Positions 50,012-55,372 of a DNA stretch of 64,000 bases are shown piece after piece. The position numbers were made by a program, and so were the translations under genes. The notes under the pieces are model-generated. The model was not told the origin of the DNA. It ran no database searches and saw only the letters and a program-made list of their open reading frames with translations. Within the stretch, counting starts at the first letter, position 1. Each line of letters begins with the position of its first letter. The stretch is from a bacterium (GTDB taxonomy: Bacteria; UBP15; UBA6099): the NCBI GenBank assembly GCA_029564595.1, contig JAKQPS010000082.1:1-64000 (forward strand). Direction: 5' to 3'.

Positions 50012-50123
50012 AACTGCCGTTCCCGCCTTTTCAATCGTTGCTGCGCCGCAGGATAATAAATGCGGTCGCGTATTTATATCATCATGATTATAAATCATAA
50101 TAGTTTCCATAGAGGTGGCGGAG

Positions 50124-51053
50124 ATGAGAATTATTTTCATGGGCACTCCGGAATTTGCGGCGGACAGCTTGCGCGCGATTATCAAGGCCGGAATGGATGT
50201 GCAAGCGGTCGTCACGCAGCCTGACAGACCCAAAGGCAGGGGCAATCTATTGATTCCATCTCCTGTTAAATCTCTAGCGTTAGAAGCCGGAATTAGGATT
50301 TTGCAGCCGGCGCGCGCAGAAGAATCAGCGGAAATTCTAAGAGAAATCGCTCCGGATTTCATCGTTGTAGTGGCTTTCGGGCAGATTCTGCGACGCGTTG
50401 TTCTTGATATCCCTAGAAAAGCAACCGTTAATGTTCACGCTTCTCTTTTGCCGAAGCTCAGAGGGGCTTCTCCTATTAACAGGGCGATAATAAACGGAGA
50501 CAAAGAAACTGGCGTGACGACGATGTTGCTTGACGAGGGCATGGACACCGGAAACATGTTGCTGAAAGAGAAAACGCCCATATTGCAGGACGACACCGCG
50601 TCCGCGCTTCATGACAGGCTGGCGGAGATCGGCTCGCGGCTCATAGTGGAGACCCTGAATAATTTTGACTCTATAACTCCGGCGCCACAGAACGAATCAG
50701 AAGCGACATACGCCCCTAAGCTGACGCGGGAAGACGGAATGATTAAGTGGAGCTCCGCTGCGGTTGAGATAAGGAATCTGGTGCGCGGTTGCGACCCTTG
50801 GCCTGCCGCCTCGACATGGCACAATGGGGCTGCTTTAAAAATTCTACATGTGGACGCTATAGATTCAGCTCCAACAAACGCGGCTCCCGGCGAGATAATC
50901 GAGGCTGCTGGGGGTTCCCTGATAGTCGCCGCCGGTTCGGGCGCGGTTTCTATCAGAGAGATTCAACGAGAAGGAAAAAAACGTCAACCTGTGGAATCGT
51001 TTCTACGAGGCTATTCGATAAAAACGGGAGACAGGTTTTTACAGAATGCCTGA
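50124..51053 (+). CDS. fmt: methionyl-tRNA formyltransferase
   Basis: 309 residues. Formylates initiator Met-tRNA using 10-formyl-THF. Motifs: RIIFMGTPEFAADSL, VVTQPDRPKGRG, and the formyl-THF/catalytic region VNVHASLLPKLRGASPINRAI with the TGVTTMLLDEGMDTG segment; C-terminal OB-like domain. Start at 50124 is six bases after GAGGTG; the GTG at 50115 lies in that site. The downstream rsmB overlaps by 8 bp. No peptide deformylase gene is next to it. Confidence 0.96.
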   Translation: MRIIFMGTPEFAADSLRAIIKAGMDVQAVVTQPDRPKGRGNLLIPSPVKSLALEAGIRILQPARAEESAEILREIAPDFIVVVAFGQILRRVVLDIPRKATVNVHASLLPKLRGASPINRAIINGDKETGVTTMLLDEGMDTGNMLLKEKTPILQDDTASALHDRLAEIGSRLIVETLNNFDSITPAPQNESEATYAPKLTREDGMIKWSSAAVEIRNLVRGCDPWPAASTWHNGAALKILHVDAIDSAPTNAAPGEIIEAAGGSLIVAAGSGAVSIREIQREGKKRQPVESFLRGYSIKTGDRFLQNA

Positions 51054-52440
51054 AGACAAAGAACCTAAGAAAATAGTCAAAAGAAAGAAATCTCCTGAAT
51101 ACTGGGGCAGACGGGTCGCTTTCGAGACGCTGAACAGAGTGATTCAAGGCGGCGGGTTTTCAAACATTCTTCTAGCTTCAAATTTGAACCGGGAAAGGCT
51201 TACCGAAAACGATAAAAGGTCGGCCACGAATCTTGTTTACGGCGTATTGAGAAACCTGACGCTCATTGACGAGGTCTTCAGAGCCAAGACCGCTCGCGGC
51301 GCGCTCGACATGTCCCCGGCTCTTTTAAACATCGGCAGGATGGCGATATATGAGATAATGTTCATGGTCAATGTTCCTCAGTATGCTTCAGTTTCCGAAT
51401 ATGTGACTATGGCGCGCCGCGAAGCAGGAGCCGCAGAGGCCGGTTTTCTCAATGCCTGTTTGCGGAAAACCCGTCGCAACGATTGGAACAGCGTCATCAC
51501 CGGGATAACCGATCCGGTGGAGCGAACAGCCAAGCTTTACTCTCATCCGGTATGGATGGCTCGCGCTTTGTCGGACGCCTACTCGATTGAAAAAACGAAG
51601 CAGATTCTTCGCGCAAACAACAATCCTCAGCCTAGCTACTTCAGAGTCAATGTTAAGCGTATGTCGGTGGATGATTTCATGGCGGCGTCTGAATACAACC
51701 ACAGGGGATTCGAGAAAACGGAAAGCCCGCGCGCTTGCGTCATGTTTCAACATGGACGCGGCGGATTTCCGGCGCGGGAATATGAGTCAGGCTGGCTCAC
51801 TCCGCAGGACAGATCGACTCAGTTTATTCCCTATTATCTGGCTCTGGAAAAAGGCGACCGTGTTCTTGATTTGTGCTGCGGTTCAGGGATCAAGACCGCG
51901 CAGATAGTCGAAATCGCGCCTGAAGGAGTCGAAGTCACGGCCGTCGATCGTTTTTCTCACAAATTGGCGTCGTTGGAAAACGAACTAGATCGTCTCGGAC
52001 TTCCTCGGATTGCGACTGTGGAAGCGGATATTACGGACAGGCCGGATCTAGGAGAATTCAACAAAATTCTATTGGACGCCCCTTGCTCGAACTCAGGAAC
52101 GGTCAGGCGAAGGCCAGAGATAAAATACCGATTGAGAGAAGCGGATATCTCAGAGTTGACTGCTGTTCAGGACAAGCTATTGGATGCCGCTTCGGCATAC
52201 ACGCTTCCCGGCGGGCTGCTAGTATATTCAACCTGCTCGATTCTGCCTATCGAGAATGATTGCCGAATTGAGGGTTTCCTATATCGACATCCTGAATTTG
52301 AATCGGCCACAAGTGAAATTGAATCTTCGCTCCGTTTTGTTTCTCCTCGCTCTCATTCAGACAAATATGGCGCGACGTTTTACCCGAACACGACAAACGG
52401 CTGTGGAACATACGTCTGTGCGCTCAGAAAAAAGAGATAA
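51046..52440 (+). CDS. rsmB: 16S rRNA cytosine-5 methyltransferase RsmB
   Basis: 464 residues. N-terminal NusB-like RNA-binding domain (about 20-160; AFETLNRVIQGGGFSNILL), an insertion, then the NOL1/NOP2/Sun methyltransferase domain with SAM motif VLDLCCGSGIKTAQI, DAPCSNSGTVRRRPEIKY (catalytic Cys region) and the second Cys in YSTCSILPIEND. It methylates C967 of 16S rRNA. It overlaps fmt by 8 bp, the usual order. Confidence 0.95.
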   Translation: MPEDKEPKKIVKRKKSPEYWGRRVAFETLNRVIQGGGFSNILLASNLNRERLTENDKRSATNLVYGVLRNLTLIDEVFRAKTARGALDMSPALLNIGRMAIYEIMFMVNVPQYASVSEYVTMARREAGAAEAGFLNACLRKTRRNDWNSVITGITDPVERTAKLYSHPVWMARALSDAYSIEKTKQILRANNNPQPSYFRVNVKRMSVDDFMAASEYNHRGFEKTESPRACVMFQHGRGGFPAREYESGWLTPQDRSTQFIPYYLALEKGDRVLDLCCGSGIKTAQIVEIAPEGVEVTAVDRFSHKLASLENELDRLGLPRIATVEADITDRPDLGEFNKILLDAPCSNSGTVRRRPEIKYRLREADISELTAVQDKLLDAASAYTLPGGLLVYSTCSILPIENDCRIEGFLYRHPEFESATSEIESSLRFVSPRSHSDKYGATFYPNTTNGCGTYVCALRKKR

Positions 52441-52608: not shown

Positions 52609-54678
52609 ATGATAACCGGCAGGACAATAGCAGGCAAATATCAGATAACTGAGTTGCTGAGACGCGAAACTTACTACGATGTGTACATAGCAAGGGTGGC
52701 AGGCTCTGAAACCCGAGTGATTTTAAAATGGTACAGGAGCGAGTTGATAGAGCGTGGAAAGACATTTGAAAGAATCAAGTCGTGGATGGACGACATTTCA
52801 AAGATGAATCATCCCCGCGTGGCTCCGCTGAGAGATTTCGGCGAGGATGAATCGATATATATCACGGAAGATTTTTACGACGGAGCTCCACTTGCGGATG
52901 TGCTCGGCAAGACGAAAGGCAATGGAATAAACGCGTTGCGAGCGTTGAATCTCGGCATAAAGATTGTCGAGGGAATGAGCGCCGCTCATCTGAAAGGCGT
53001 TGTTCACGGACAGTTTTCTCCGAGGTCTGTGATAGTCGCCGGAGATTTGAATCCTAAAGTGGTGGATTTCTTCATCCTGCATAGATTGTCATCCGAACTT
53101 AAAACATCAGCCGAGTTCCAAGGCAGGGACATAAGGTACTGCGCGCCCGAAGTGATCTCTGGTGGGAAACCTGATTTCAGGTCGGACGTATATTCCGTAG
53201 GCGCGACTCTGTATGAGTTGTTGACAGGAAAACAGCCGTTTGACACTGAGAACGCGCTTTCTATCGCGCTCGACAAGGTGAGTTGCGAGTTGAAAAGCCC
53301 TCGCGCCTGCAATCCCGAAGTGCCGAAGCTTCTTGAAGCGGTTGTCATAAAGTGCATTAAAAGAGACCCTGAAGCTAGATATAAAAACGCCACGGATCTG
53401 CTAAACGAGTTGTATTTGTGCAGGACCGCAATTGTTCGCGAGGCCAACGCCGAGAAAAACGCGGCGCAGGATGTAGACGGCGCGCCTGCGGCGTCTGCCA
53501 CGTCACAAGGAGAAGCAACGCTTGGCCGGGTGGCTCAAAGCAATATGGCGAAAGCAGGCGGCGCGCCGGATGCTAGCGCGGCGTTAAACGATCAATCAAC
53601 AGGCCAAAGCCGCGCCGCTTCAGATTCGTCAGATATTTCCACCAAAGCCTCAGAATCCGGCGAGAGTGAAACTTCGGTTGGAGGTCAGGCGATGGGAACG
53701 AAGAGACAACTCCCGAAGGGCTTCACCGCTTTTGCGGTGTCCCTTGGCGTTTTGCTTGCTATCGTGATCATTCTGGCCAAAGTCGCCTCCAACTTTTTTG
53801 GCGGCAACCCGGCGGCAAGCTCTGTCGTAATTCCTAATGTCATAGGGAAAAGCGTGTTGGAAGCGAAATCTGTTCTTGGCGCAAAAGGGCTTGTCGCGGT
53901 TATCTCAGGCAAACAGAACAGCGAAGAAATTCCTCGCGGTTATATCATGAAGCAAACCCCCGAAAGCGGCGCTAGGGTTAGGAAAGACAGGGAAATAGAA
54001 CTTATTGTGAGTTCAGGTCAACACAGGGCGGTGGTTCCGAAATTGGAAGGTCTCACCATCGAAGACGCGCGTTTGATTCTCGAAAAGGCTCAATTGACCG
54101 TCGGCGATATCGTATCCGAGTACAGCGAACAATATGGCGAAGGTTTCGTGACCGGTCAGACGCCTGAGGCCGGAGAAGAGCGATACGCAGGCTCTGCGGT
54201 GAATATCAGATTGAGCAGCGGCCGCATGGGCAAGCTTTACGGCATGCCGCCCGTCACTAACATGGCAATCGAAGACGCGCGCGCTTTGCTGGAAATGAAC
54301 GACATCAGGAACATCGAAACAAAACACATAGACACATCGTACGCCGGAGACGGCAGGGTTGCGGCACAGAGCGTTCTTGAAGGGACAAAAATCCCCGCAA
54401 ACCAGAAAGTGACTTTATACTATGCCCGGCAGCCTGAAAGGTCTTCGCTGAATTCGGTTCTCGACGACCCTACCAAGGGCGTTGTCAATATCAAAATATC
54501 TTCGGAAAATGAGAGTCAGGAAGTTGTCGTAATGGTTTACGACAGGAGCAACGCGCGGGAAGCATACAGAGCTTTTCACGGACCCGGCGATGTGGCGCAG
54601 GTTCCAGTCTCAGGTTACGGAAAATTGCACGTGCTGGTTTACATAAACGGCATTCTGATCACCGAGCAGACCTTGTAG
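52609..54678 (+). CDS. PASTA-repeat Ser/Thr kinase homologue, probable pseudokinase
   Basis: 689 residues. Kinase-like domain (about 8-275), acidic/Ala-rich linker, one transmembrane helix (about 371-397), three PASTA repeats (about 402-600) and an unassigned C-terminal beta domain (about 620-689). The VAIK lysine is kept as Lys40 (RVILKWYR) and the DFG-position Asp as Asp153 (VDFF), but the Gly-rich loop is gone and HRD is HGQ (133-135), so the catalytic base is missing. Activation and lobe regions (IRYCAPEVISG, DVYSVGATLYELLTG) look normal. It sits between rsmB and rpe, where active PrkC-type kinases are found; no PrpC phosphatase is adjacent. PASTA domains bind muropeptides. Confidence 0.9.
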   Translation: MITGRTIAGKYQITELLRRETYYDVYIARVAGSETRVILKWYRSELIERGKTFERIKSWMDDISKMNHPRVAPLRDFGEDESIYITEDFYDGAPLADVLGKTKGNGINALRALNLGIKIVEGMSAAHLKGVVHGQFSPRSVIVAGDLNPKVVDFFILHRLSSELKTSAEFQGRDIRYCAPEVISGGKPDFRSDVYSVGATLYELLTGKQPFDTENALSIALDKVSCELKSPRACNPEVPKLLEAVVIKCIKRDPEARYKNATDLLNELYLCRTAIVREANAEKNAAQDVDGAPAASATSQGEATLGRVAQSNMAKAGGAPDASAALNDQSTGQSRAASDSSDISTKASESGESETSVGGQAMGTKRQLPKGFTAFAVSLGVLLAIVIILAKVASNFFGGNPAASSVVIPNVIGKSVLEAKSVLGAKGLVAVISGKQNSEEIPRGYIMKQTPESGARVRKDREIELIVSSGQHRAVVPKLEGLTIEDARLILEKAQLTVGDIVSEYSEQYGEGFVTGQTPEAGEERYAGSAVNIRLSSGRMGKLYGMPPVTNMAIEDARALLEMNDIRNIETKHIDTSYAGDGRVAAQSVLEGTKIPANQKVTLYYARQPERSSLNSVLDDPTKGVVNIKISSENESQEVVVMVYDRSNAREAYRAFHGPGDVAQVPVSGYGKLHVLVYINGILITEQTL

Positions 54679-54712: not shown

Positions 54713-55372
54713 ATGAATAGACCGACACTGTCAGCCTCGCTTCTAAGCGCAGACTTTATGTGTTTGGACGCCCAGCTTAGGGAGCTATCCGAAGCGGGAG
54801 CGGACACTCTTCACGTCGATGTCATGGACGGCATGTTCGTTCCGAATATATCGCTCGGTCAAGTTGTTGTAAAATCCATCAATGAGAAAACGCCTCTGCA
54901 GATGGACGTTCATTTGATGATAGAAGCCCCGGAGAGATATCTGCGCGAGTACGATTTCGACAACGTCAAAAGCTTGGGCGTCCATCCAGAATCAACTCCT
55001 CATCTAGACCGCGCACTGCAGATTATTAAGGACATGAAGAAGGAAACCTGCGTCGCCCTTAACCCTTCCACTCCTTTGAGCGCAATTGAATGGGAGCTTG
55101 AAAAAATCGATATGGTCATCATCATGACGGTCAATCCCGGATTCGGCGGACAACGGTTTATGCCTGAAATGCTGCCAAAAATTGCGGATTTGCGCAAGAT
55201 TATAGACGGCAGAGGTTTCGAGACTGTTATAGGTGTCGACGGCGGCGTTTCCAGCGAAAATATTAGGATTATTTGCGATTCAGGCGCTGATTACGTTGTG
55301 GCAGGCAACTATCTGTTTCATAGCAAAAACTCAATTAAGGAAGCCGTTGACGAGTTGTGGAACCAGTTGTGA
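54713..55372 (+). CDS. rpe: ribulose-phosphate 3-epimerase
   Basis: 219-residue TIM barrel that interconverts ribulose-5-P and xylulose-5-P in the pentose-phosphate pathway. Motifs: SASLLSADFMCLDAQL, LHVDVMDGMFVPNISLG, DVHLMIEAPERY, NPGFGGQRFMPEML and GVDGGVSSENI; all metal ligands appear present. GGAGGAATTAGC precedes the ATG. Third member of the conserved rsmB-kinase-rpe order. Confidence 0.96.
   Translation: MNRPTLSASLLSADFMCLDAQLRELSEAGADTLHVDVMDGMFVPNISLGQVVVKSINEKTPLQMDVHLMIEAPERYLREYDFDNVKSLGVHPESTPHLDRALQIIKDMKKETCVALNPSTPLSAIEWELEKIDMVIIMTVNPGFGGQRFMPEMLPKIADLRKIIDGRGFETVIGVDGGVSSENIRIICDSGADYVVAGNYLFHSKNSIKEAVDELWNQL

Follow-up and report, generated by a model that had tools for sequence, protein, structure and literature searches.

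To our knowledge, bacterial PASTA receptors have been studied almost solely as kinases. In PrkC, PknB, StkP and Stk1, which belong to the NCBIfam family PknB_PASTA_kin (NF033483), a cytoplasmic Hanks-type domain is followed by one transmembrane segment, three PASTA repeats and a C-terminal extracellular domain. According to the available passages of PMC5786024, the C-terminal extracellular domain of B. subtilis PrkC is Ig-like, and its PASTA part binds muropeptides with kinase activity unchanged in vitro. Bacterial pseudokinases are defined in the accessible sections of a 2025 review (PMC12599244) as kinase folds missing at least one of the VAIK Lys, the HRD Asp and the DFG Asp. The same sections describe EssB/YukC as a transmembrane pseudokinase serving as a structural platform, and the pseudokinase domain of M. 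tuberculosis MviN (MurJ), of the ActPs3 family, as controlling the cell wall by way of a binding platform, MviN working through phosphorylation by PknB and through FhaA (PMC12599244). Literature searches within one open-access library turned up no described PASTA pseudokinase family, and in those sections of the review of bacterial pseudokinase families the word PASTA occurs once, in the reference list.

PASTA kinases and bacterial pseudokinases are both known already; what is new here is a maintained clade of PASTA pseudokinases within a locus-bound family that has repeatedly lost catalysis. We describe it from a bacterial genome, starting from a window, by which we mean the whole stretch of 64,000 nucleotides that was analysed.

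Results

Architecture of the protein and its locus

The open reading frame at positions 52609-54678 of the window is intact and encodes 689 amino acids, which comprise, in order, a kinase fold, a single membrane span, three PASTA repeats and, at the C-terminal end, a conserved domain of about 67 amino acids (Table 1). Pfam places Pkinase at residues 24-269 (81 bits, E 9.8e-23) and detects three PASTA stretches (E 2.9e-42), and the closest PDB relatives are the kinase domains of PknB and StkP (E down to 4.4e-29). NF033483 matches residues 4-605 with 309.9 bits, under its cut-off of 450 bits. A first-pass annotation had already recognised the three repeats and the additional C-terminal domain, the former in agreement with Pfam and the latter with conservation among orthologues. 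This C-terminal domain recurs in PASTA proteins of several phyla, both with and without a kinase; it has no Pfam match, and a PDB sequence search gave none below E 1. By analogy with known PASTA kinases, the sequence predicts a cytoplasmic pseudokinase, a span near residues 370-392 and PASTA repeats outside. AlphaFold2 models from shallow alignments reached a pLDDT of 40.0 for the kinase domain and 38.7 for the ectodomain and were not used. The gene order at the locus is fmt-rsmB-[X]-rpe, X being the PASTA pseudokinase gene.

Table 1. Features of the PASTA pseudokinase locus (positions in the window).
Feature	Position	Strand	Remarks
fmt, methionyl-tRNA formyltransferase	50115..51053	+	TIGR00460, over cut-off
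rsmB, 16S rRNA m5C967 methyltransferase	51046..52440	+	TIGR00563, over cut-off
Pseudokinase domain, residues 1-272	52609..53424	+	Pfam Pkinase 24-269; PDB relatives PknB/StkP; dN/dS 0.066
Former Gly-rich loop, residues 16-27	52654..52689	+	LLRRETYYDVY, glycine-free; R..[YF]YD.Y instead, conserved in clade
VAIK lysine, K40	52726..52728	+	motif VILK; kept in 4/4 orthologues
alphaC Glu position, W59	52783..52785	+	W, S, N, N across the four orthologues
Catalytic loop	53005..53031	+	HGQFSPRSV; HRD Asp lost, Lys and Asn both Ser
DFG position	53065..53073	+	DFF; Asp kept, Gly to Phe
Variable juxtamembrane linker, residues 273-366	53425..53706	+	dN/dS 0.228, highest of the protein
Predicted single transmembrane span	53716..53784	+	after a basic stretch; by inspection
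PASTA repeat 1	53824..54015	+	domain search
PASTA repeat 2	54031..54216	+	domain search
PASTA repeat 3	54244..54423	+	domain search
C-terminal domain, about 67 aa	54475..54675	+	conserved; zero amino-acid changes against the sister genome
rpe, ribulose-phosphate 3-epimerase	54713..55372	+	TIGR01163, over cut-off; 34 bases downstream of the PASTA gene

Loss of the catalytic site

The kinase domain has lost the HRD Asp, the Lys and Asn of the catalytic loop, the DFG Gly, the alphaC Glu and the Gly-rich loop, and it retains the VAIK Lys40, the DFG Asp153, the APE Glu181, Asp193 and Arg257. The motif calls of the first-pass annotation (HGQ at HRD, Gly-rich loop lost, VAIK Lys and DFG-position Asp kept) were right, and its list of losses holds as far as it went; it had overlooked W59 in place of the alphaC Glu, the two serines that replace the loop Lys and Asn, and the Phe that replaces the DFG Gly. 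Lacking the HRD Asp in a kinase fold, the domain falls among the bacterial Ser/Thr pseudokinases in the broad sense. Two narrower signatures do not fit: GLW pseudokinases have GLW at HRD and LLL[L/W] replacing the VAIK Lys, where the clade has HGQ or HGL and keeps the Lys, and DYD pseudokinases lack the alphaC Glu, as here, and have the VAIK Lys changed to Arg, here kept. Of the marks of an active PASTA Ser/Thr kinase, the protein shows the fold, the transmembrane span (by inspection) and the PASTA repeats; intact catalytic residues and a score over 450 bits are missing.

PASTA kinases over the NF033483 cut-off, found in only 14 of the 386 sampled genomes, provided intact controls: in all 14, Lys, Glu, HRD, Asn and DFG are in place. 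Since the four orthologues share the same losses and the controls show none, the losses in the window protein are more than chance. Its kinase domain is probably devoid of catalytic activity, to judge by these residues; nucleotide might still be bound, as the VAIK Lys and the DFG Asp are kept.

Orthologues and purifying selection

The comparison set near the window consisted of seven genomes of its order and included none from a wider group below domain. Four of the seven, from three families, have the orthologue: the window genome, an independent sister assembly (L036 in G001, record JAKQBV010000001.1), whose open frame has the same length and is 97% identical, and two members of other families, L008 in G005 (45% overall identity to the window protein) and L009 in G006 (35%). 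The HRD Asp is replaced by Gln, Gln, Leu and Leu, so that the genus has HGQ, the two other families have HGL and Asp occurs in none. The loop Asn is Ser in all four, the DFG Gly is Phe, Phe, Tyr and Gln, and the VAIK Lys and DFG Asp are kept throughout. The clade-specific motifs R..[YF]YD.Y, RD.RYCAPE and LCR are likewise conserved across the three families. The remaining three genomes (G002, G003 and G004) are without the gene. Gene loss was rejected as the cause, because rpe is missing from these assemblies too and the locus is unassembled there.

Between the window protein and L036, the kinase domain has a dN/dS of 0.066 (dS 0.206; a single pair with 8.5 non-synonymous differences). For the same pair, dN/dS is 0.014 over the transmembrane and PASTA part, 0 in the C-terminal domain and 0.228 in the linker, compared with 0.092 for rsmB, 0.098 for fmt and 0.012 for rpe. 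With a dN/dS about as low as those of rsmB and fmt, the kinase domain is under purifying selection, a dead domain maintained rather than decaying. Sequence, orthologues and selection lend good support to the earlier proposal of a catalytically dead receptor.

Other kinases and partner domains in the order

A second, active PASTA kinase, which the first-pass annotation had suggested looking for, was not found in the window genome, where the window gene is the only PASTA-bearing gene detected (in G000, many short contigs read as N). Pkinase matches occur at two places there, the window gene and a piece cut off by the edge of the 9.7-kb contig C2, with HRDIKPEN and DFG intact and no PASTA match. 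This contig has a GC content of 0.578 and a tetranucleotide correlation of 0.80, against 0.87-0.94 for most sampled contigs; contamination was considered, and contigs C13 (0.787) and C3 (0.81) are equally odd.

In the sister genome G001 the orthologue is the only kinase match, and in G002, G003 and G004 none exceeded the cut-off. G006 has, besides the orthologue, a kinase at a contig end that reads HRDIKP, and G005 has the orthologue, an intact kinase adjoining a PP2C gene and a second pseudokinase with HGA at HRD. The intact kinase (L044, on C78) carries a long C-terminal extension, which we take to resemble a formylglycine-generating-enzyme domain. The second pseudokinase (L043:2061-3947, on C6) is a membrane protein free of PASTA repeats, with HGAVVPRKI at HRD, LDG at DFG and VALK kept. 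Except in G005, PP2C matches are weak across the seven genomes of the order, with 639-645 aa in G000-G003. FHA domains were found in none of these seven genomes and in six of the 14 of the control rings. With FHA absent from the order, a route of the MviN type, by PknB phosphorylation and FhaA binding, is unlikely here.

A locus shared with kinase-less PASTA proteins

A profile of the transmembrane segment, PASTA repeats and C-terminal domain of the window family (A3) matched 238 of the 386 genomes. Among 30 A3 loci listed, four are the orthologues and 26 lack a match to the kinase domain of the window protein; in 24 of the latter, fmt, rsmB or rpe lies no more than 1.5 kb away, the two misses being L076 and L080. 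The window protein itself shows the features of this rsmB/rpe-linked PASTA family, namely the transmembrane segment, the PASTA repeats, the shared C-terminal domain and the locus. The gene had been thought to keep an ancestral rsmB-kinase-rpe place: the place is borne out, but not a kinase as its first occupant, as most of the best-scoring homologues of other phyla at this place are kinase-less.

Twenty further A3 matches were read, picked mostly for long frames. Four hold intact kinases (L088, L091, L093 and L094), two from one phylum hold degenerate kinases beside fmt (L089 with HGF and L090 with HNC; Pfam Pkinase only at E 0.042 and 0.0056), and the remainder show no recognisable kinase. 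The PASTA proteins L096 and L103 (G025 and G172), presumably Thermus-like, have a cytoplasmic part of about 130 amino acids, maybe a remnant of a kinase N-lobe. We do not claim a kinase origin for it, the hhalign E of 0.003 going with a probability of only 10%. L098 and L099 (G052 and G327) are PASTA proteins of 498 amino acids with a cytoplasmic domain of about 215 amino acids, L099 adjoining rsmB; a kinase origin of these N-terminal regions is unsupported, as no kinase match was obtained. At L134 (G379:C273:7000-14000), only a PASTA fragment is readable between fmt and rpe, with no membrane span, so that either the gene is broken or the assembly is at fault.

Non-RD PASTA kinases near rpe and repeated loss of catalysis

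Directly upstream of rpe in G010 lies a PASTA kinase (L035) with HGD kept, VGIR at VAIK and LAG at DFG, and L035 is matched in all 61 sampled genomes of the phylum. Fifty-two places were fetched from this phylum (12 loci and 40 further listed matches). Nine are of the HRD type and group with L200 (HGD), and rpe was seen beside none of these ten. The other 42 are of the HG type (non-RD, 'HGD'), with rpe in the fetched stretch for 32. By a count made by eye, 13 of the 42 HG-type kinases have lost at least one of the VAIK Lys, HRD Asp and DFG Asp, and 29 keep all three. Many of the HGD kinases near rpe (e.g. L170-L181) lack the alphaC Glu despite an intact triad, so that their activity is doubtful too.

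On a kinase tree of 73 rows, from which the near-copies L170, L173, L175 and L206 had been dropped, loss within the triad requires at least five changes, the window clade included (base 3, DFG Asp 2, Lys 2). The window clade is recovered at 100/100 on a long stem. In a quick tree it groups with the HG kinases, apart from every HRD kinase (SH-aLRT 98), and with the catalytic-motif columns removed a tree of 37 rows gives the same grouping at 90/88, below the strict mark. This placement emerged once the phylum of G010 had been added. A first kinase tree including the degenerate L089 and L090 was dominated by long branches and was set aside; once these and further long rows were taken out, the window clade was placed with the active PASTA kinases, at only 61/92. 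The tree of the ectodomain, which does not depend on the kinase, separates a single group of 29 kinase-less rows (86) from a side (85) that unites the window clade with the HG clade, the pairs L089/L090 and L088/L093, L096 and two other kinase-less rows. The absence of a kinase thus mainly reflects one large group and not dozens of losses. Taken together, the kinase and ectodomain trees, both unrooted, give moderate support to a kinship of the kinase-bearing rpe-linked PASTA members, window clade included.

Discussion

We favour, with a probability of roughly 60%, the interpretation that the window protein, as a member of the rsmB/rpe-linked PASTA family, serves as a single-pass membrane receptor or scaffold, with a maintained pseudokinase, an ectodomain that would bind the cell wall, and signalling by contact without phosphotransfer. 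Its architecture, catalytic losses, conservation, selection, locus and the repeated inactivation within its family are observed; topology, ligand, dimerisation, partners and lack of activity are our reading of them. On the outer side of the membrane, peptidoglycan or its precursors are the probable ligands of the PASTA repeats and the C-terminal domain. On the cytoplasmic side, the pseudokinase is likely to retain a surface for protein binding and dimer formation: Lys10 and Asp76, which we take to occupy the salt-bridge positions of the PknB dimer, are kept in all four orthologues, and where PknB is presumed to have its third dimer residue, Leu33, the window clade has Ser or Thr. Occupancy or clustering of the ectodomain would then be passed to cytoplasmic partners by contacts of the pseudokinase. 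The muropeptide receptor acting through bound partners that the first-pass annotation proposed is a reasonable candidate role.

The protein might alternatively matter for its ectodomain alone, as an extracellular anchor or organiser of peptidoglycan, with the pseudokinase surviving from a kinase ancestor as no more than a passive plug in the cytoplasm. Kinase-less homologues do occupy the same locus in many phyla, and constraint is strongest on the transmembrane, PASTA and C-terminal parts. A passive plug would, however, be expected to drift, whereas the kinase domain is about as constrained as rsmB and fmt and its three clade motifs persist over three families, which makes this explanation unlikely. 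We regard it as still more improbable that the domain is catalytic, either by phosphotransfer with an unusual base or by another transfer from ATP as in SelO. The preserved VAIK Lys and DFG Asp would suit it, and so would E. coli SelO, which in Table 1 of the accessible part of PMC12599244 reads WHLK / Hgvmntdn / DYG, with an HG start and no Asp. SelO, however, keeps the metal-binding Asn that is Ser in all four orthologues, which speaks against altered chemistry of the SelO kind; the window clade also lacks the alphaC Glu, the Gly-rich loop and the DFG Gly, and the window protein matches no SelO family in Pfam or NCBIfam. So many missing catalytic residues might also suggest that the gene is a decaying pseudogene or that its sequence or assembly is faulty; this is refuted by the equal-length frame in the independent sister assembly, the low dN/dS and the same losses in the distant orthologues of two further families, and its likelihood is negligible.

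We put forward a broader proposal tentatively and at somewhat less than even odds: fmt-rsmB-[X]-rpe may house a PASTA receptor that is old and widespread and performs its central task without a kinase, one large group being kinase-less and the kinase-bearing branch having lost catalysis at least five times with the receptor retained. If true, a conserved envelope function could do without the kinase activity that textbooks present as the point of PASTA receptors. Dead and kinase-less members, retained at one conserved locus under selection, would permit direct tests of a kinase-independent role of the PASTA ectodomain, including the unsettled effect of muropeptide binding, for which the available passages of PMC5786024 report binding without kinase stimulation in vitro.

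Among known systems, the window protein resembles PrkC, PknB, StkP and Stk1 in its order of domains, and the PASTA kinases of some genomes (L091) also have rsmB and rpe as neighbours. It differs from PrkC, PknB, StkP and Stk1 in lacking the catalytic residues, in a locus without a PP2C gene and in a score of 309.9 against 450 bits. Like MviN it is a membrane-linked bacterial pseudokinase; unlike MviN it has PASTA repeats and no MurJ part, and it stands in an order without a detected FHA domain. EssB/YukC, unlike the window protein, is part of type VII secretion and has no PASTA repeats. With the kinase-less proteins at fmt-rsmB-[X]-rpe it shares the transmembrane segment, PASTA repeats, C-terminal domain and locus, these proteins having no kinase-like domain of any kind. 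With the rpe-linked HGD PASTA kinases of the phylum of G010 it has in common the gene order at rpe, the C-terminal domain and HG at HRD, whereas the window clade has lost more of the kinase motifs than they have.
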